Shown here piece by piece: positions 46,220 to 55,405 of a stretch of DNA of 64,000 nt (position 1 is its first letter; the number at the start of each line of letters is the position of its first letter). Origin of the DNA: Roseovarius azorensis. Its GTDB lineage: Bacteria > Pseudomonadota > Alphaproteobacteria > Rhodobacterales > Rhodobacteraceae. The position numbers were made by a program, and so were the translations under genes. The notes below the pieces were generated by a model that was not told where the DNA came from, did no database searches, and was given only the letters and a program-made list of their open reading frames with translations. The stretch is taken from the NCBI RefSeq assembly GCF_900109455.1, contig NZ_FOAG01000004.1, positions 186,001-250,000 of the forward strand, in the 5' to 3' direction.

Positions 46220-46296
46220 GGCGGAGTAGCTCAGTTGGTTAGAGCAGCGGAATCATAATCCGCGTGTCGGGGGTTCAAGTCCCTCCTCCGCTACCA
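46220..46296 (+). tRNA. tRNA-Met (CAT), elongator
   Basis: 77 bases that fold as a full cloverleaf: seven-base acceptor stem GGCGGAG with CTCCGCT (first pair G-T), D-arm with GTTGGTTAG, anticodon stem GCGGA/TCCGC with loop ATCATAA giving anticodon CAT, five-base variable region, T-arm with GTTCAAGT, and encoded CCA. The body matches alphaproteobacterial elongator tRNA-Met; an isoleucine tRNA with a modified CAT anticodon is less likely. A T-rich run just after CCA may help termination. Confidence 0.95.
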
Positions 46297-46405: not shown

Positions 46406-46522
46406 TCAATGCCCACCGGCATAGTGCGCATCAAGGATGGCAATGACCTGTTCCGGGTTGTGATCGCTGCACAATCGGGCTGTGCCTGCGCCCACTAAAG
46501 GAGGATAGCTCCCGAGCGTCAT
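46406..46522 (-). CDS. Putative 38-residue protein coupled to the permease stop
   Basis: The ATG at 46522 overlaps the permease stop codon (ATGA at 46519-46522), a common translational-coupling junction, and the frame ends with TGA at 46406. The peptide starts MTLGSYPPLVGAG and ends in AILDAHYAGGH with one Cys and several His/Asp. It is too short to judge by family, and no signal or membrane segment is seen. It could be a small accessory protein of the transporter or a chance frame in the 3' tail of the operon. Confidence 0.35.
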   Translation of the reverse strand: MTLGSYPPLVGAGTARLCSDHNPEQVIAILDAHYAGGH

Positions 46523-48474
46523 AGCCCAAGAGCGCGGCGGCGACTATCGGCCATGCGATTGATCAGGTGATCCACCATCAAGCCGATGAAGGCCACGGCG
46601 AAACCCAGGACCAATCCCTTGCCCACATCGGTAGAACTGAGCGCACGCTGCATTTCCTGCCCCAGATCCTGTGTCCCGATAAAGGCCGCGATGATCACCA
46701 TGAAAAGTGAGAACATCAGCGATTGATTCAGTCCGACCATGATCGTGGGAAAAGCCAGCGGCAGGCGCACATGGCGCAGGCTCTGGCCACGGGTGGCGCC
46801 GGACATGTCCGCCGCCTCTATCATAGACTCGGGGACGCTGCGCAGACCCTCTATGGTGTAACGAATCAGCGGCACCGCCGCAAAGAGCACCACGGCCCCA
46901 ACCACCGCCACATCGTTGACACCAAAGAGCATGATCACCGGAATAAGGTAGATAAAGCTGGGAAAGGTCTGCAGACTGTCACACAGCAGCAGGACACGCT
47001 TGGCACGCTTTTCATGGCGAGATGCCCATATCCCCAGCGGAAAGCCAAAGCTGGCCGCGACCGCGACCGCCACTAGAACCGTATAGACCGTGATCATCGC
47101 CCGATCCCACCAGCCTGAGATCGCAACATAGCCAAAGAAGCCCAGACAGATCAACGCCGAGCGCCAGCCTCCCACGGCATAACCCGCCCCCGCCAGCGCC
47201 ACCAGAACCGCCGTATAGGGCAGCCACAGCAGGGCATCGCGCACCGGAATAAGCACCCAAGTGATCAGGAACCAGCGCAGCCATTGGGTCACCGGATCAA
47301 TCATGACGATCACCCAGGACATGGCCGCATCAAGCGGATTCGCCACCGACAGCGACTGCCCCCGCCCAACCTCGGCAAGAAACGGAACCTCTGCAGACAG
47401 GGCAAACCCCGCCATCGTCAATCCGACCCATGTCAGCAACACCCGATGCCGCGCTGCCCATCCTGTCCCCGACTCGTGATGCACGGGCTGGCGCTCTGCC
47501 CAAGCCTTTGAGCAACGATCCAGCGCCACCGCCAGCAGGACAATCGTTATGCCGATCTCGATGGATCGACCGATCTTGAGCGCCTGCAACAGTTGCAAGA
47601 GCTTCTGCCCCAGCCCCGGCATGCCGATGAAGCTGGCCAGAACAACCATCGCCAGACATTGCATGATCACCTGATTGACACCGACCAGAATATCTGTGCG
47701 CGCAGAGGGGATACGCACTCGCGTCATCAACTGCCAGCTCGTACTGCCGCACATCTTGCCGCTCTCGACAACCTCGGGCGGGACCTTGCGTAAACCCAGC
47801 AGGGTCATGCGGATCATCGGCGGTACCGAAAAGATGATGGTGACGATCGCTCCTGCCTTTGGCCCCACCCCGATGAACACCACCACCGGGATCATATAGG
47901 CGAAATGCGGCAAGGATTGCGCAATGTTCAGAATCGGGTTCAGCACCGCTTCGAACCTGCGCCAGCGCCACGCGGCCACACCCGTCAGGAGTCCCAGCAA
48001 CACGGAAAAAGGCGCGGCCACCACGATCACCGACAGGGTTTCCATGGCCCATTTCCATTGCCCCATGAGCGCGATCCAGACAAAGGTGCCCCCCGCCAGA
48101 ACAGCCAGACGCACACCGCCCAGCCAATAGCCCAGACAGGCGGCACTCAGTGCCGTCACTATCCATGGCAGGGGCCCGATCCGCGGCCACCGGTTTTTGC
48201 CATATAGAATATTTGCAGTCACATCGAGCAGCCACTCGATGCCGTCAGCAAAGGCGCGGGTGACATGGATCAGCCCCAGATCGTCACGCAACCATATGAA
48301 AAACGCATTGATCCAGTCCGCCAGCGGCAGGATCAGCATCTCCGCAGGGCGCATCAGCCCATCCGGCAATATCGGTCGCGCAATGATCAGCACGACTGCC
48401 AGCGCGAACAACGCCCACGCCGGGCCGAGCGCCAGTTTCGCAACCGGTCGGGAAGGCTGGGCGCTTTCGTTCAT
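46519..48474 (-). CDS. Fused double permease of a glycine-betaine/TMAO-class ABC importer
   Basis: 651 residues, about twice the usual permease length. Two BPD-type permease domains are joined: coupling regions ESGKMCGSTSWQLMTRV with RIPSARTDILVG (about residues 233-265) and EAADMSGATRGQSLRHV with RLPLAFPTIMVG (about 560-590). Each half has five to six helices. The ProW/OpuAB family fits; a duplicated chain like this is found in Roseobacter importers for TMAO and betaine. It overlaps the ATPase gene by four bases and is overlapped by the 38-residue frame at its end. Confidence 0.87.
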   Translation of the reverse strand: MNESAQPSRPVAKLALGPAWALFALAVVLIIARPILPDGLMRPAEMLILPLADWINAFFIWLRDDLGLIHVTRAFADGIEWLLDVTANILYGKNRWPRIGPLPWIVTALSAACLGYWLGGVRLAVLAGGTFVWIALMGQWKWAMETLSVIVVAAPFSVLLGLLTGVAAWRWRRFEAVLNPILNIAQSLPHFAYMIPVVVFIGVGPKAGAIVTIIFSVPPMIRMTLLGLRKVPPEVVESGKMCGSTSWQLMTRVRIPSARTDILVGVNQVIMQCLAMVVLASFIGMPGLGQKLLQLLQALKIGRSIEIGITIVLLAVALDRCSKAWAERQPVHHESGTGWAARHRVLLTWVGLTMAGFALSAEVPFLAEVGRGQSLSVANPLDAAMSWVIVMIDPVTQWLRWFLITWVLIPVRDALLWLPYTAVLVALAGAGYAVGGWRSALICLGFFGYVAISGWWDRAMITVYTVLVAVAVAASFGFPLGIWASRHEKRAKRVLLLCDSLQTFPSFIYLIPVIMLFGVNDVAVVGAVVLFAAVPLIRYTIEGLRSVPESMIEAADMSGATRGQSLRHVRLPLAFPTIMVGLNQSLMFSLFMVIIAAFIGTQDLGQEMQRALSSTDVGKGLVLGFAVAFIGLMVDHLINRMADSRRRALGL

Positions 48475-49502
48475 GCGTGCCCTCCAAGCAGAATATCCAG
48501 CGCCTCCTGCCGGTTCAGACCGCCTGTTATCCGGCCGGCCTCATCGGCCACCGGCAGAACCTCGCGGGCGTCATTGACCAGTAATCGTGCAAGGGCACGG
48601 ATCGTGCTCTTGCCCGGCACCGGCTGTCCCCTGAGGGGAACGCCATTTATCGGTCGCGCCAGTCCGGCAGCATGCACCACGCGGGCCTTCTCGATGTCTT
48701 CGGTGAACTTGCGCACATACTCGGTCGCAGGTTTCAAAACGATGCGATCGGGCGTGTCGCATTGCTCGACCGCACCGTCTTTCATGATGGCAATACGATC
48801 CGACAGCCGCAGCGCCTCGTCAAAATCATGGGTGATGAAAACGATGGTCTTGCCCAGCAGCCCTTGCAGCCGCAGAAATTCATCCTGCATCTCACGCCGG
48901 ATCAGCGGATCAAGCGCGGAAAACGGCTCGTCCAGAAACCAGATGTCCGGTTCGATGGCCAGCGACCGGGCGATGCCCACGCGCTGCTGCTGACCACCGG
49001 ACAATTCACGCGGAAAATAGTCCTCGCGCCCTCCCAGCCCCACCAGTTCGATGACCTCTAACGCGCGCTTGCGGCGGGTCGTGCGATCCTGCCCACGCAT
49101 TTCCAGCGGAAAGGCCACGTTTTCCAGCACCGTGCGATGCGGCAGCAATCCAAAGCTCTGAAACACCATGCCCATCTTGTTGCGGCGCAGGTCAATCAAC
49201 TGTTTCTCAGAGAGCGCACCGATGTCCTGTCCCTCGACCGACACGGTGCCGCCGGTGATCTCGATCAGGCGCGACAGGCAGCGCACCAGCGTGGATTTGC
49301 CCGAACCCGAGAGGCCCATGATCACCAGCATCTCTCCCCGCGCGATATCGAGCGAGACATCGCGCACTGCCGAGATATAGCCCGCCTGACGAATGGTCTC
49401 GAATCCCGGATCGCCTTTGAGAACCTTCAAATAGGTCTCAGGCGACGGCCCGAAGAGTTTCCAGACATTCCGGCATGAGATCACGGGTTCAGACACTGGC
49501 AC
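48471..49502 (-). CDS. ATP-binding protein of a glycine-betaine/TMAO-class ABC importer (ProV/OpuAA-like)
   Basis: 343 residues from GTG 49502, chosen for the AAAGGGGGG just ahead; the frame could begin at a TTG nine codons earlier. N-terminal extension ISCRNVWKLFGPSPE is typical of ProV. Walker A is [14 protein letters not shown], the signature [15 protein letters not shown], and Walker B WFLDEPFSALDPL. The C terminus is a degenerate single CBS-like region. It powers the downstream double permease (four-base overlap). The SBP gene is upstream behind a strong stem-loop. Confidence 0.9.
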   Translation of the reverse strand: MPVSEPVISCRNVWKLFGPSPETYLKVLKGDPGFETIRQAGYISAVRDVSLDIARGEMLVIMGLSGSGKSTLVRCLSRLIEITGGTVSVEGQDIGALSEKQLIDLRRNKMGMVFQSFGLLPHRTVLENVAFPLEMRGQDRTTRRKRALEVIELVGLGGREDYFPRELSGGQQQRVGIARSLAIEPDIWFLDEPFSALDPLIRREMQDEFLRLQGLLGKTIVFITHDFDEALRLSDRIAIMKDGAVEQCDTPDRIVLKPATEYVRKFTEDIEKARVVHAAGLARPINGVPLRGQPVPGKSTIRALARLLVNDAREVLPVADEAGRITGGLNRQEALDILLGGHA

Positions 49503-49531
49503 GCGACACCCCCCTTTCTTGAATGGCAAAA

Positions 49532-49559
49532 CCTCACCCGTGGCGGGCCACGGGTGAGG
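49532..49559 (-). terminator. Stem-loop between binding protein and ATPase genes of the importer
   Basis: A perfect 12-base stem (CCTCACCCGTGG with CCACGGGTGAGG) encloses CGGG. On the minus-strand transcript it is followed by TTTT, so it has the form of a partial intrinsic terminator. It is 17 bases after the binding-protein stop and 30 before the ATPase start, so it should leave more binding-protein message than channel message. Confidence 0.75.
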
Positions 49560-49576
49560 CGGGCTTCAGGTCAGGA

Positions 49577-50650
<1,074 letters not shown>

Positions 50651-50673
50651 GGGGAAACTGCGTGGAGAGCTCG

Positions 50674-51378
50674 ATGGCAGCAAGGCCTCCTCATATCCTT
50701 ATCATCGAGGACGAACCGGTGACCCGCACCACACTTGCGGAATACCTAAGCTCGCATGGCTATACAGTGACAGCTTTCGAAAGCGCCGAGTCGGCAGAGC
50801 CGATGCTGGCCAGCGATCAGGCAGACCTGCTGCTGGTCGATATCACCCTTGATGGCAAGGACGGCCTGCAAATCACCCGCGAACAACGCGCGCGCTCCGA
50901 CATAGGCATCATCCTGACCACCAGTCTCAGCGATGACGTGGACCGGATCGTCGGGCTGGAACTGGGGGCAGATGACTATGTCTGCAAACCCTTCAACAGG
51001 CGTGAACTCTTGGCCCGGATCAAGAACCTCTTGCGGCGCACCGAGATGCACCGCCGTTTCTCGCGTCAGCACGTCCGTTTTCACGGGTTTTCCTTTGCCA
51101 TGGCCACGCGGCAGTTGACCGCGTCAGATGGCGCGAGTATTCGCCTGACCCGCGCCGAATTCGAGCTGCTGGCCGAATTGCTGCGGCACCCGGGTGAAGT
51201 CCTGAGCCGCGAGCGCCTGATGAGCGCCGTGACCCACCGCCAACAACATCCCGATACCCGCACCGTTGACGTGATCATCCGTCGTCTGCGCACCAAGCTC
51301 GAAGAGGATCCGGCCGTGCCACGCATCATCACCACCGCCCATGGCGAAGGTTATGTGTTTACCGCCACCCTGGACTGA
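50674..51378 (+). CDS. torR: TorR-like OmpR-family response regulator
   Basis: 234 residues from ATG 50674 with GGAG ahead; GTG 50662 is an alternative with its own GGGGGAA site. The receiver has the acidic pair Glu12-Asp13, phosphoacceptor Asp56, Thr82 and Lys105. IVGLELGADDYVCKPFN closely matches E. coli TorR. The winged helix (about 135-234) ends in TVDVIIRRLRTKLEED and GEGYVFTA. In E. coli TorR receives phosphate from TorS and activates torCAD. Here it is divergent from an importer gene and its 3' end overlaps the convergent torS by 28 bases. Confidence 0.88.
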   Translation: MAARPPHILIIEDEPVTRTTLAEYLSSHGYTVTAFESAESAEPMLASDQADLLLVDITLDGKDGLQITREQRARSDIGIILTTSLSDDVDRIVGLELGADDYVCKPFNRRELLARIKNLLRRTEMHRRFSRQHVRFHGFSFAMATRQLTASDGASIRLTRAEFELLAELLRHPGEVLSRERLMSAVTHRQQHPDTRTVDVIIRRLRTKLEEDPAVPRIITTAHGEGYVFTATLD

Positions 51379-54278
51379 GGCACGCTGTCCAGATCGATGA
51401 TCGCGCGCCTAAGCGCGCTGCGCGCCTTACCTATTTCAGCGGGCAACTGCTCAACCGCCTCGCTCACGCGATCCATATCTCCCATATGGGCGGCCCCTTC
51501 GATCTCTTTCAGACAGGCGGTGAGTCCGGGCAGGCAGAAATTACCCGCAGCCCCCTTCATGCGATGCGCCACCTTGACCACAGATCCGACAGCGCGTTCC
51601 GCGACAGCCTCAGTCAGACATGACGCCTCGTCCTCCAGCCCTGCCAGATAGAGGCGCACCGCCTCCACGGTCTGTTCACTCCCTAGGTCCGACAGCACGG
51701 CACTCAGCACATCGCCGTCCCCTGCGGCAGGCCAGGATAGCGACCGTGGCGACAGAAACACCCCACGCCGCTGCCCGTCCACCACCTGATCCAGGGCCGC
51801 GACCAGCCGTTCGGGCGAGACCGGTTTGGCCACGAAGCAATCCATCCCGGCGTTCAATTGCTCCTCAACTTGATCGTCCTCCACATGCGCCGAGATACCG
51901 ATGACAGGCAAGGTCCCGCCAACCGGCATGTCCCGAATGCGGCGGGTCGCCTCGGTTCCCGAAAGTCCCGGCAGGTTGACGTCCATCAACACCAGATCGA
52001 ACCGCTCGCTCCCCAACATCTCCAGCGCTTCCTCGGCGCTGCCCACGCAAACGGCCGTGTGCCCCATCCGCTCCAGATAGCTGCGCGCGACCAGTTGGTT
52101 GACCTTGTGATCCTCGACGATCAGCGCATGCAGCGCCCGCGCGCCCTTGACTGGCGTCCAGTCCGGCACGCGATCCGTCAGTGTCGCGGCATCAGCAAGA
52201 TCAAAATCTGCGCTGAGCGTGAAGACCGATCCGACATTCGGCGTGCTTTCCAAACTCAGCGCACCACCGATCACCTCGGCGAACTTGCGACAGATCGCAA
52301 GCCCGAGGCCGGTGCCCCCATAGCGGCGGGCGGTCAGACCGTCTTCCTGTTCAAAAGCTTCGAAAATTCGTTGCCGGGCATGGGCAGAGATGCCCTTGCC
52401 GGTATCGCTCACCTCAATGATCAGGGTCACACGGCCAGGGCCAGCAAGGCGACAGCGTAACCGCAGCACCACTTCGCCTTCCTCGGTGAACTTGACCGCA
52501 TTCGAGACGAGGTTGAACAGGATCTGCCGCAACTTGACCATATCGCCATTCACGGCGGCGGGCACATCCGCCGGCAGATCCAGCCATAGCACGATGCCCT
52601 TTTCCCGGGCACCCGGTTCCAGCAGCGTGACAATCACCTGCATGACCTCCGCAACCGAAAAGATGACCCGTTCCTCATGAGTGCCACTCAGCTCAGCTTT
52701 GGAATAGTTCAAAATGTCGTTCAGGATCGTCAGCAGGCTTTCGCCCGACGCACGCGCGGCGCGCACCTGTTCCAGTTGCGCCTCCGACAAGCCGTCCATC
52801 GACAGGTTGCGCAGCATCCCCAGAACCCCGTTCATCGGCGTGCGAATCTCATGGCTCATCATCGCGAGAAACTCCGATTTGGCCCGATCCGCCGCCTCTG
52901 CCTTTTGACGGGCAACCGTATGGGCCTCGACTTCACCGCGCAATTGCTCGGTCTTCTCTGCCACAAGCTCTTCCAGGGCAGTACGGTGCCGATACAACTC
53001 CTCCTCGTTGCGGCGACGCGCTTCTTCCAGATTTCGGTTGGCGATGGCCTGACGGCGAAACACTTCGACCGCGCGCTCCATGCCTGCAATCTCGTCATTG
53101 CCACGAGGAGCCACACGCATATCAAGCTGCCCCGCTGCAAGTCGGGTCATCATGTCGGACAGGTTGTCCAACCGGCGCGAAATGTTGCCTCGCACGTAGA
53201 ACCACAGCACGCCAAGCGAAAGCAAAAGTGCCAGCCCGGCCGCGCCAGCACTGCGCAACCGTGTTGCGCGGATGACCTCCATTGACGTGGTTCCGGCAAG
53301 GAGTGCGTCCGCCTGAACCCGCTCAGCCAGAGCAGTCACGGCGTCATGCAGCCGCGCGGCCGACACCCGCAGCGCCGCTTGCTGGCTGTCTATCTCCCGC
53401 TCCAGCTTCAAGATGCCCTCGGTAAGCCCAAGCAGCCCGCCCGACCCCGAGCCATCGCTCAGTGGCAGGATGATCGCAAGCAGCACCTGCGCCTGCGCCG
53501 CGCGCCCGGGATCACGGATCGCCGCAACCCGGCGCGCGACGATCTCTGCCCGGTCTTCCAGGTTGGCCCGGATCAACGGCAGTTCGGCTTCATTCCGCAG
53601 CGTCGCGATGCGGTTGAACAGCAGGCCCATTTCCGCCGTCCGCGACCGCAGCTCGAACATCAGCCCCAGTTGGAACAGATCGACCTCGATCAGCTTGTCG
53701 AGCGTAGTTAGCCGAGACGAGGTGCCCGGCGAGCCGGGTTCATATTCATAAAGGTTCGAGATCACCGCTGCGGTCCCCATCTCCGCATTGGCCACCAGCG
53801 TATCCGCCATGCTCAAGAGTTCGGAAGTCGCCCCAAGGGCCTTGTCCAGACCCTCATCCCGGGCCTGAACCAGCGAGATGCGCTGCTTCACCAGCCGGTC
53901 CAGTTCTGCAATGCCCTCTTTCATCTGGGCCACCGCGCCGGTCAGATCGTCCCCGGTACCGCCATGTTCCCTCTGAAACTGCACCAGATGATCCGACAGC
54001 GCCGCAACCCGTTCACTCAGATACGCCGCGCGATCGCGCCGCTCGGCCTCGTCATCCACCGCGGCCATCTCCGGTGCCACGGTAACGATTGAAGAGCTTT
54101 CCTCGGTAAAACGCCGCATATCCGTCAGGACCGGGATGGATTTCTCATAAAGCTGCTGCTGCGCGCGGGTCACGTCGCGCAACTCGAACCAGCCGAAAAA
54201 TCCCGCAAGGGCAGGCAGACCGGCGATCACAAGAAACGCCGCCAGAAGCCTCGCACCCAATCCGATCCTGGTTCTCAT
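51351..54278 (-). CDS. torS: TorS-like hybrid sensor histidine kinase with receiver and Hpt domains
   Basis: 975 residues. An N-terminal helix (LLAAFLVIAGLPALAGFFGW) and a second near 340-360 frame a periplasmic helical sensor. HAMP follows at about 360-415. HisKA has His476 in MMSHEIRTP, then an HATPase with FNLVSNAVKFT and GTGLGLAICRKF. The receiver has Asp766 in LVLMDVNLPG. The Hpt domain has His905 in VAHRMKGAAGNF. This His-Asp-His order is that of E. coli TorS, which senses TMAO through TorT. It would phosphorylate TorR. torT is divergent 83 bases away. Confidence 0.9.
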   Translation of the reverse strand: MRTRIGLGARLLAAFLVIAGLPALAGFFGWFELRDVTRAQQQLYEKSIPVLTDMRRFTEESSSIVTVAPEMAAVDDEAERRDRAAYLSERVAALSDHLVQFQREHGGTGDDLTGAVAQMKEGIAELDRLVKQRISLVQARDEGLDKALGATSELLSMADTLVANAEMGTAAVISNLYEYEPGSPGTSSRLTTLDKLIEVDLFQLGLMFELRSRTAEMGLLFNRIATLRNEAELPLIRANLEDRAEIVARRVAAIRDPGRAAQAQVLLAIILPLSDGSGSGGLLGLTEGILKLEREIDSQQAALRVSAARLHDAVTALAERVQADALLAGTTSMEVIRATRLRSAGAAGLALLLSLGVLWFYVRGNISRRLDNLSDMMTRLAAGQLDMRVAPRGNDEIAGMERAVEVFRRQAIANRNLEEARRRNEEELYRHRTALEELVAEKTEQLRGEVEAHTVARQKAEAADRAKSEFLAMMSHEIRTPMNGVLGMLRNLSMDGLSEAQLEQVRAARASGESLLTILNDILNYSKAELSGTHEERVIFSVAEVMQVIVTLLEPGAREKGIVLWLDLPADVPAAVNGDMVKLRQILFNLVSNAVKFTEEGEVVLRLRCRLAGPGRVTLIIEVSDTGKGISAHARQRIFEAFEQEDGLTARRYGGTGLGLAICRKFAEVIGGALSLESTPNVGSVFTLSADFDLADAATLTDRVPDWTPVKGARALHALIVEDHKVNQLVARSYLERMGHTAVCVGSAEEALEMLGSERFDLVLMDVNLPGLSGTEATRRIRDMPVGGTLPVIGISAHVEDDQVEEQLNAGMDCFVAKPVSPERLVAALDQVVDGQRRGVFLSPRSLSWPAAGDGDVLSAVLSDLGSEQTVEAVRLYLAGLEDEASCLTEAVAERAVGSVVKVAHRMKGAAGNFCLPGLTACLKEIEGAAHMGDMDRVSEAVEQLPAEIGKARSALRRAIIDLDSVPQSRVAVNT

Positions 54279-54361
54279 CTGGCAAAGCCACGAAATGCCA
54301 TGTTTCTTGCACTCCTTTCCTGGCAGCTTATAGTAATTTCCTCGACAGGAGTGTACTTTTC

Positions 54362-55405
54362 ATGCAAAGAATAATCGCCTGTATTCTGTCACTTCTGCCC
54401 CTGCCGCTCTGGGCGGAGAGTTGGCCTCTTGAAACCCATGCGACACCGTTCGACTATGACAGCCCGGCGCTGTCGTTGGATTACACCCCGTTGGACCAGG
54501 CCGCAAAACCTTGGATCATCTGCGTTTCCTATCCTCATCTCAAGGACGCTTATTGGTTATCGGTCAATTACGGCATGGTCGAAGAGGCAGAGCGCCTTGG
54601 TGTGGGCTTTCGTCTGGTCGAGGCAGGCGGTTATCCCAACCTCGACCGCCAGATCGAACAGATCCGGGACTGCGTGGCGCAGGGGGCCGATGCGCTGATT
54701 GTTGGCACGGTCTCGTTTGACGGGCTGACCCCCACCATTCTGGAGTTGTCACAGACAGTGCCGGTGATCGCGGCGGTCAATGACATCGCCGATTCAGGCA
54801 TCGCGGCCAAGGCAGGTGTGTCCTGGTATGAAATGGGGGCGACGGCAGGCCGCTTCATCGCCGCGCGACATCCCCCCGGCAGCGCCCCCGTGCAACTCGC
54901 ATGGTTCCCTGGGCCAAAAGGCGCGGGCTGGGTCTCGTTCGTGGAGGCCGGGTTTAGAGATGCCATCGCGGATAGCGCGGCCATGATCGCCCTCACCAAA
55001 TACGGCGATACCGGACGCGAGATTCAGGTGTCGCTGGTGGAAGAAACGCTCGATAGCGGCATCCATATCGACTATCTCGTCGGCAGCGCTCCCACGGCAG
55101 AGGTCGCCGTGTCGATCCTGCGGGCGCGGGGATTGCAGGATCAGATCAGCATAGTCTCTGATTACATGAGCCATGCCGTCTTTCGCGGAATCCGGCGAGG
55201 GCGAATTCTGGCGGCGCCCACCGATTTTCCGATAACTCAGGGCAGGTTGGCCATCGAGATGGCTGTGCGTGCGATCGAGGGCACGCTGACGATCCGCCAT
55301 GCCGGACCCAGGATCCGATTGGTTGTCTCGGATACGGTCGACAGCACCGATCTTGTCGGCACTCTGGCACCCGCCAGCTTCATCCCGGTGTTCGAGGTGG
55401 AATGA
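54362..55405 (+). CDS. torT: TorT-like periplasmic TMAO-sensing protein
   Basis: 347 residues with a signal peptide (MQRIIACILSLLPLPLWAES). The fold is the type-1 periplasmic binding protein. Segments SYPHLKDAYWLSVNYGM and EAGGYPNLDRQIEQI closely match E. coli TorT, as do the later SDYMSHAVFRGIRRGRI and SFIPVF end. In E. coli, TorT binds TMAO and docks on the TorS sensor domain to trigger the relay. It faces away from torS. No TMAO reductase genes follow; the next gene is a convergent LytTR protein. Confidence 0.9.
   Translation: MQRIIACILSLLPLPLWAESWPLETHATPFDYDSPALSLDYTPLDQAAKPWIICVSYPHLKDAYWLSVNYGMVEEAERLGVGFRLVEAGGYPNLDRQIEQIRDCVAQGADALIVGTVSFDGLTPTILELSQTVPVIAAVNDIADSGIAAKAGVSWYEMGATAGRFIAARHPPGSAPVQLAWFPGPKGAGWVSFVEAGFRDAIADSAAMIALTKYGDTGREIQVSLVEETLDSGIHIDYLVGSAPTAEVAVSILRARGLQDQISIVSDYMSHAVFRGIRRGRILAAPTDFPITQGRLAIEMAVRAIEGTLTIRHAGPRIRLVVSDTVDSTDLVGTLAPASFIPVFEVE

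Follow-up and report, generated by a model that had tools for sequence, protein, structure and literature searches.

We analyzed a 64-kb stretch of DNA from Roseovarius azorensis (contig NZ_FOAG01000004.1; hereafter the window), which encodes a TorT-TorS-TorR (TorTSR) phosphorelay beside the genes of a TmoXVW-type importer for trimethylamine N-oxide (TMAO). In textbooks, TorTSR regulates anaerobic TMAO respiration, and NCBIfam calls TorT and TorS "TMAO reductase system" proteins. Here, we consider it likely that the relay has the importer operon tmoXVW as its target, and TMAO uptake is very probably under TorTSR control. The strongest of the new findings is that the predicted operator before tmoXVW keeps the layout of the E. 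coli torCAD operator. Read directly from the DNA are the genes, their conserved order, the TMAO pocket of TmoX, the operator as one strong site per genome in ten genomes, and the lack of a reductase above cut-off in this Roseovarius-like genome (3.86 Mb, 43 contigs, 99.97% complete).

The original prediction made on this DNA had described six genes: an importer composed of binding protein, ATPase and fused permease, torR divergent from it, torS convergent with torR, and torT divergent from torS. All six lie where it had placed them and on the strands it had given, with a tor-box array between tmoX and torR:

46519..48474, minus strand: tmoW-like fused permease, 651 amino acids, with PF00528 (BPD_transp_1) in two stretches
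48471..49529, minus strand: tmoV-like ATPase of the ProV/ChoV type, start codon uncertain
49577..50518, minus strand: tmoX, predicted TMAO-binding protein (OpuAC; 571 bits to 4XZ6)
50588..50650, minus strand: tor-box array facing tmoX, its boxes conserved in 10 genomes
50533-51378 (open frame), plus strand: torR, OmpR-type response regulator, 234 amino acids from a likely, inferred start at 50674
51351..54278, minus strand: torS, hybrid sensor kinase (TIGR02956, PF21689)
54362..55405, plus strand: torT, predicted periplasmic TMAO-sensor binding protein (NF008185, TIGR02955)

The ATPase and fused permease genes adjoin tmoX, all on one strand, and the convergent torR and torS share their last 28 bp.

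We compared this arrangement across two samples: a family sample of 295 genomes, drawn evenly from a larger family, and a named-genome sample made up of the best 80 of 154 TorT relatives. TorT-like proteins occur in 35 of the 295 genomes, and in all ten genomes with a TorT of at least 59% identity, TmoX lies on the same contig, ~4 kb away; an alignment of the nine loci other than the window's found the six-gene layout unchanged. PF21689, the sensor domain of TorS, is present in 13 of the 295 genomes and is strong (92-120 bits) in exactly the ten with a TmoX-linked TorT. The comparison of gene order in related genomes, proposed at the outset as a check on the prediction, gave one answer throughout: TmoX is present in 74 of the 80 named loci (all six genes in 68), and every one of these 74 reads tmoX(-) torR(+) torS(-) torT(+), so the six-gene layout is not due to chance. 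By their titles, the 74 loci come from many Rhodobacteraceae, from Aminobacter, Mesorhizobium and Pseudaminobacter (which we take to be Rhizobiales), from Rhodospirillales, and from two gammaproteobacterial bins (L202 and L209). Among the six named loci lacking TmoX, three (L175, L199 and L211) sit on a short contig or close to where one ends. L148 yielded no TorR either and adjoins ammonium-transporter-type, glutamate-synthase-like and formate-tetrahydrofolate ligase genes; L173 adjoins a molybdopterin enzyme with formate-dehydrogenase-like domains; and in L215 an open frame without a Pfam match stands next to torR. The open frame downstream of tmoX in L145 had no Pfam match either.

The array between torR and tmoX consists of four boxes, at 50650-50641 (box 1), 50640-50631 (box 2), 50619-50610 (box 3) and 50597-50588 (box 4). 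Aligning the ten tmoX-torR regions without the E. coli sequence revealed conserved blocks, and read toward tmoX the alphaproteobacterial boxes are decamers resembling CTGTTAACAT, TTTTTAACAA, CTGTTCATCG and CTGTTCACAT at offsets 0, +10, +31 and +53. At these four offsets, and likewise oriented, the E. coli torR-torC region carries CTGTTCATAT, CTGTTCATAT, CCGTTCATCC and CTGTTCATAT, the decamers that PMC9239176 numbers as tor boxes 1-4. We set the ten operator anchors from box matches together with the E. coli spacing, and two checks are independent of that choice: the E. coli-free alignment, and a count of the distances between box pairs. The count used the E. coli decamer only, at up to 4 mismatches, in the 74 named tmoX-torR regions (those of L192 and L197 being ~4 kb long). 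The six commonest distances, 31, 22, 53, 10, 43 and 21, coincide with those between every pair of E. coli boxes and had counts of 51, 48, 46, 32, 31 and 28 of 74; these are not independent events, because the named loci are related to one another. In 200 dinucleotide shuffles, the highest count at any distance was 16, versus 51 observed.

The array is also specific to its position. A weight matrix built from the ten sites scored the E. coli operator at 37.6, with 10.0 for the next best site in 16 kb on both strands, and leave-one-out scores of the ten sites were 26.0-45.5 versus at most 9.3 elsewhere in the window. A search with an operator sequence model gave one strong match in each of the ten genomes, at tmoX-torR (57.9-71.2 bits; next 16.6), and in the source genome this site was the only one listed at E<=10. 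The first look of this search scored 150 of ~1100-2300 candidates per genome, so weaker operator sites may be missed. At 15 tmoX promoters from genomes without TorTSR, scores reached at most 6.1; in eight of these 15 loci there is a Tmm, Tdm or HODM-type gene with at least 50% identity. The array persists, at 38.7-44.1, in three torTSR loci (L142, L146 and L147) with a permease 55-59% identical to the window's. For 56 of the 74 named loci, the highest-scoring site in the entire locus falls within the tmoX-torR region and reaches at least 25, and several Rhizobiales have a diverged array of the same spacing visible at tmoX. The original prediction that the relay controls an importer and not a reductase gains support from this array, whose geometry is kept across genera and which is unseen at the 15 tmoX promoters lacking TorTSR, as well as from the intact TmoX pocket and the lack of a reductase over cut-off. 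The proposed TorTSR-importer wiring is very probably real and general.

The importer is of a known type. PMC8918994 describes TmoXVW-type importers as TMAO-specific and tied to catabolism, and identifies 4XZ6 as the structure of R. pomeroyi TmoX. The window TmoX has seven of seven TMAO-pocket residues (an aromatic box and a Glu), with positions shifted uniformly by 19 relative to the R. pomeroyi residue numbers in PMC8918994. Across 99 aligned rows, the window included, four pocket residues are invariant, two are absent solely in one gapped row, and Phe87 is replaced in 7. We identify the window binding protein as a TmoX orthologue, for which TMAO transport is predicted. The ATPase exceeds the cut-off of TIGR01186 proV (334.9 versus 326.6), and the permease has ChoW/ProW-type matches in the NCBIfam scan, all under their own cut-offs. 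The original prediction had spoken of an osmolyte importer; that word should be dropped, since an importer of this TMAO-specific, catabolism-linked type is not a general osmolyte importer.

Over its aligned part, the window TmoW is 70-76% identical to TmoW in the nine other torTSR-linked clusters of the family sample, and permeases of 14 loci without TorTSR in that sample are 46-56% identical to it. We considered whether torTSR-linked permeases form a separate subtype; this idea was weakened, since 19 named torTSR loci have permeases of 40-59% identity. Three TmoX-like matches were listed for the source genome: the window's own and two others, 42% and 35% identical, neither within the tmm/tdm cluster described below. 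A genome from the same genus, which has no TorS with PF21689, carries a tandem pair of TmoX-like genes at L104 (G278:C1:1099234-1101463), with 73% and 77% identity to that of the window.

The original prediction had seen no torCAD or torA-like gene in the window, and had held that a torCAD operon elsewhere in the genome, as the sole TorR target, would speak against it. Extending the search to the whole genome, we found no BisC/TorA/DorA-type reductase over cut-off (best, TIGR00509 at 162.6 versus 1017.55). Seven molybdoenzyme frames were scanned: four pass the cut-offs of other families (NuoG, formate dehydrogenase, NarG and arsenite-oxidase type), two are nearest formate dehydrogenase and under cut-off, and one has no NCBIfam match at 1e-60. 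Across the family sample, a BisC-family enzyme (E<=1e-200) is found in 93 of 295 genomes and in three of the ten torTSR genomes, where it lies on another contig or 2.9 Mb away; no PF21689 match is linked to a BisC-family gene in any of the 295. A reductase as the target of the relay was rejected, with none over cut-off here and none linked in the three of ten genomes that have one.

The source genome carries genes for TMAO catabolism. Contig C21, distinct from that of the window, carries at ~118-148 kb tmm (838 bits, cut-off 675) and tdm (1212 bits, cut-off 1100), with DmmA-domain, HODM-type, ammonium-transporter-type, GcvT-type and glutamine-amidotransferase genes between them. From these genes, we assign the cluster to the known aerobic route from trimethylamine (TMA) through TMAO and dimethylamine to monomethylamine. 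Tmm is present in all ten torTSR genomes versus 67 of 295 overall, a result with a chance of 2e-7 if the genomes were independent, which they are not. A tdm gene stands near torTSR in ten of the 80 named loci, directly after tmoW in five and directly after torT in three Aminobacter.

In Aminobacter L197, L212 and L213, a tor-box-like array lies between torT and tdm and faces tdm, with 9, 10 and 11 mismatches, respectively, summed over the three best boxes. By this sum, the best 0.1% of random stretches have 10 mismatches and the best 1% have 12. Comparable arrays follow torT in L192 (11; the contig ends there) and L193 (12; tdm not found), and the link between a tor-box array and tdm in Aminobacter is for that reason suggestive only.

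We next turn to the relay proteins. The window TorT passes both NCBIfam models, NF008185 (392.5 versus 200) and TIGR02955 (323.9 versus 310), matches the TorT structure 3o1h at 222 bits, and is 36% identical to E. coli TorT. Its closest relatives among the best 80 of 154 named ones are from Roseovarius, with 85% identity to that of Roseovarius sp. 217. TorS is 29% identical to E. coli TorS and carries the PF21689 sensor domain (93.9 bits, cut-off 27) together with HAMP, HisKA, HATPase, receiver and Hpt domains with phosphorelay motifs present, and TorR is 46.6% identical to E. coli TorR. An unrooted tree of 33 TorT rows, with long E. coli and Vibrio branches, gathers the ten torTSR-linked TorTs into one group with support of 94/98, marginally short of the level that the tool marks with a star; E. 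coli and Vibrio TorT make up a second group, and importer-linked proteins mostly a third. The importer-linked comparison group comprises 15 proteins (4YHS and L036-L049); an ABC (ATP-binding cassette) ATPase adjoins eight of the 14 from the family, and the other six were assigned by tree position only.

The TorTs of E. coli and Vibrio and nine or more of the ten linked ones agree at S67, N69, M72, W155, S266, H271 and R275; the 15 importer-linked proteins mostly differ at these residues, and all 15 have Phe at the W155 position. The TMAO contacts of Vibrio TorT (an Asp, two Tyr and two Trp) we take to be D62, Y91, Y268, W65 and W155 of the window protein. These are kept in the ten linked TorTs, bar one change of W65 to Tyr, and do not discriminate between the groups, because all but W155 are also conserved in the importer-linked proteins. 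A role for TorT in a CUT2-type importer at this locus, as its binding protein, was rejected: no genes of such an importer adjoin torT, and the linked TorTs group apart in the tree.

The model NF008185 is itself too broad, accepting six of six importer-linked binding proteins (L079, L083, L084, L087, L105 and L088; 219-425 bits, cut-off 200). TIGR02955 rejects all six (154-296 versus a cut-off of 310) and narrowly misses one of four other torTSR-linked TorTs (L212, 309.4). Annotation pipelines are likely to call the importer-linked proteins TorT, since NF008185 accepts them; no TorS was seen beside them. In G214, G114, G035 and G275, TorT-like proteins of 38-40% identity are encoded ~3.8 kb from a BisC-family molybdoenzyme gene.

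Taking these elements together, we infer TMAO as the TorT ligand, phosphotransfer through the relay, and activation rather than repression. Periplasmic TMAO would bind TorT, and TorT would signal to the sensor domain of TorS. Phosphate would then pass through the His-Asp-His relay of TorS to TorR, and phosphorylated TorR would bind the four-box array between torR and tmoX and activate tmoXVW, probably controlling torR as well. TMAO entering through TmoXVW would be demethylated by Tdm and could serve aerobic metabolism as a source of nitrogen, carbon and energy.

Several observations weigh against this scheme or its generality. The best family matches of TorS and TorR fall short of their equivalog cut-offs: TorS scores 625.2 bits against TIGR02956 (cut-off 676.5) and TorR 255.1 bits against NF008034 (cut-off 275). 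The window operator is the lowest of the ten modelled sites (34.9 from a matrix that includes it; 26.0, against a next best of 9.1 in the 64 kb, from one that does not) and its box 3 is degenerate, and a scan for one promoter type found no sigma-70 promoter in the tmoX-torR intergenic region. Of the 74 named loci, 14 have a top operator score under 20 or a top site beyond the tmoX-torR region; 13 of these 14 have diverged TorR and TorS, L157 being the exception, and among the 74, L202, L203, L207 and L214 have no recognisable array. Aminobacter L192 and L197 have ~4 kb between tmoX and torR, and three more of the 295 genomes have a weak PF21689 match (27-35 bits) with no TmoX-linked TorT. Finally, the TorT fold alone is no proof of TMAO sensing, since TorT-like proteins at 43-54% identity fall in a group whose genes have been seen next to those of sugar-type ABC importers.

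This last point leads to a different account of the signal, in which TorTSR controls tmoXVW but senses another ligand, for instance a betaine, a sugar-like compound or a methylated amine other than TMAO, as TorT is kin to the binding proteins of CUT2-type importers. The window TorT is indeed nearer to the importer-linked group (43-54%) than to E. coli TorT (36%), and that group also keeps most of the presumed TMAO-contact residues. Moreover, among 16 neighbourhoods obtained from the 28 TorT-like matches besides the ten linked ones, 11 have an ABC ATPase of ~500 amino acids beside the TorT-like gene (two ATPases were scanned, both sugar-type). Against this, the linked TorTs share W155, S67, N69, M72, H271 and R275 with E. 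coli and Vibrio TorT, and the TmoX of the importer has an intact TMAO pocket; we regard another ligand as unlikely.

Two further accounts place the target elsewhere. E. coli TorR also controls its own gene, and the array could by analogy serve torR autoregulation only, leaving tmoXVW to an AraC-type TmaR or similar regulator within a methylamine regulon. The boxes, however, face tmoX as those of E. coli face torC, ending ~70-110 bp before the tmoX start in the ten sites (start codons located for part of them). The array is missing at the 15 tmoX promoters without TorTSR, accompanies TorTSR even where the permease is only 55-59% identical (L142, L146 and L147), and recurs in weaker form before tdm in three Aminobacter, which makes autoregulation alone improbable in our view. 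More improbable still, to the point of being barely credible, is a remnant or hitchhiker relay from TMAO respiration, its true target being a reductase that is encoded elsewhere or has been lost. Three of the ten torTSR genomes do have a BisC-family enzyme, but no reductase is linked to the relay in any of the ten, no strong operator appeared elsewhere in these genomes (part of the weak candidates having been scored), and the same gene order recurs in 74 named loci from several orders. Control of tmoXVW by a TMAO-sensing TorTSR relay accounts for these patterns best.

How does this system compare with known ones? E. coli has the same three proteins, with torT likewise divergent from torS and torR divergent from the target operon, and its tor-box array has the same spacing and direction. 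Unlike in E. coli, the target here would be an importer operon in a genome with no TorA-type enzyme over cut-off, boxes 1 and 2 are CTGTTAACAT/TTTTTAACAA-like, and torR lies tail to tail with torS instead of with torT. Rhodobacter DorS and DorR, regulators of dimethyl sulfoxide (DMSO)/TMAO reductase, likewise exert two-component control over TMAO and DMSO metabolism in Alphaproteobacteria; unlike here, their target is a reductase. CUT2-type importers with TorT-like binding proteins (4YHS, Bradyrhizobium) resemble the system in having a TorT homologue and differ in being adjoined by sugar-type ATPase genes, not torS, and in having Phe at the position of TorT Trp155.

R. pomeroyi DSS-3 tmoXVW encodes the same type of importer, with a TmoX pocket identical at 7/7 positions. 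In the available text of PMC13390433, each of the three methylamines tested induces the R. pomeroyi importer genes, which lie in a TMA cluster, and the pathway genes are under TmoR and the AraC-type TmaR, which senses a methylamine-breakdown product; a term search of that text returned neither "two-component" nor "response regulator". TorR and TorS were likewise absent from the available text of PMC5520151 and PMC4543880 by term search, though TmoX appears there. The original prediction knew of no described case of such wiring, and we too found no description of TorTSR control of TMAO uptake in the open-access literature, judged by titles and abstract openings of the papers listed. Within that literature, the parts are known, and their combination, together with a retained operator and an exchanged target, appears undescribed.

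If TorTSR does control TMAO uptake across many aerobic bacteria, the label "TMAO reductase system" misleads, and predictions of TMAO respiration from torS or torT annotation alone would go wrong. TMAO scavenging would have a dedicated sensor outside the cell, versus the inside-sensing TmaR logic of R. pomeroyi, and the system would offer a clear case of a regulator and an intricate operator layout staying constant while the target operon differs. Somewhat short of an even chance, TorTSR and the four-box operator may be an old and portable TMAO-sensing module, used by aerobic Alphaproteobacteria and some Gammaproteobacteria for TMAO uptake and demethylation. The textbook torCAD role in anaerobic respiration would then represent one among several wirings and might itself be derived, the geometry having been kept and the target exchanged.

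Two further features of the source genome deserve mention. Near tmm on C21 (L022:11052-11771) are genes for a GntR/FCD-type regulator, possibly equivalent to TmoR in this genome, and for a Peripla_BP_6 binding protein. In the window, a tRNA-Met gene at 46220-46296 lies directly downstream of tmoW and marks a possible insertion point of the cluster.

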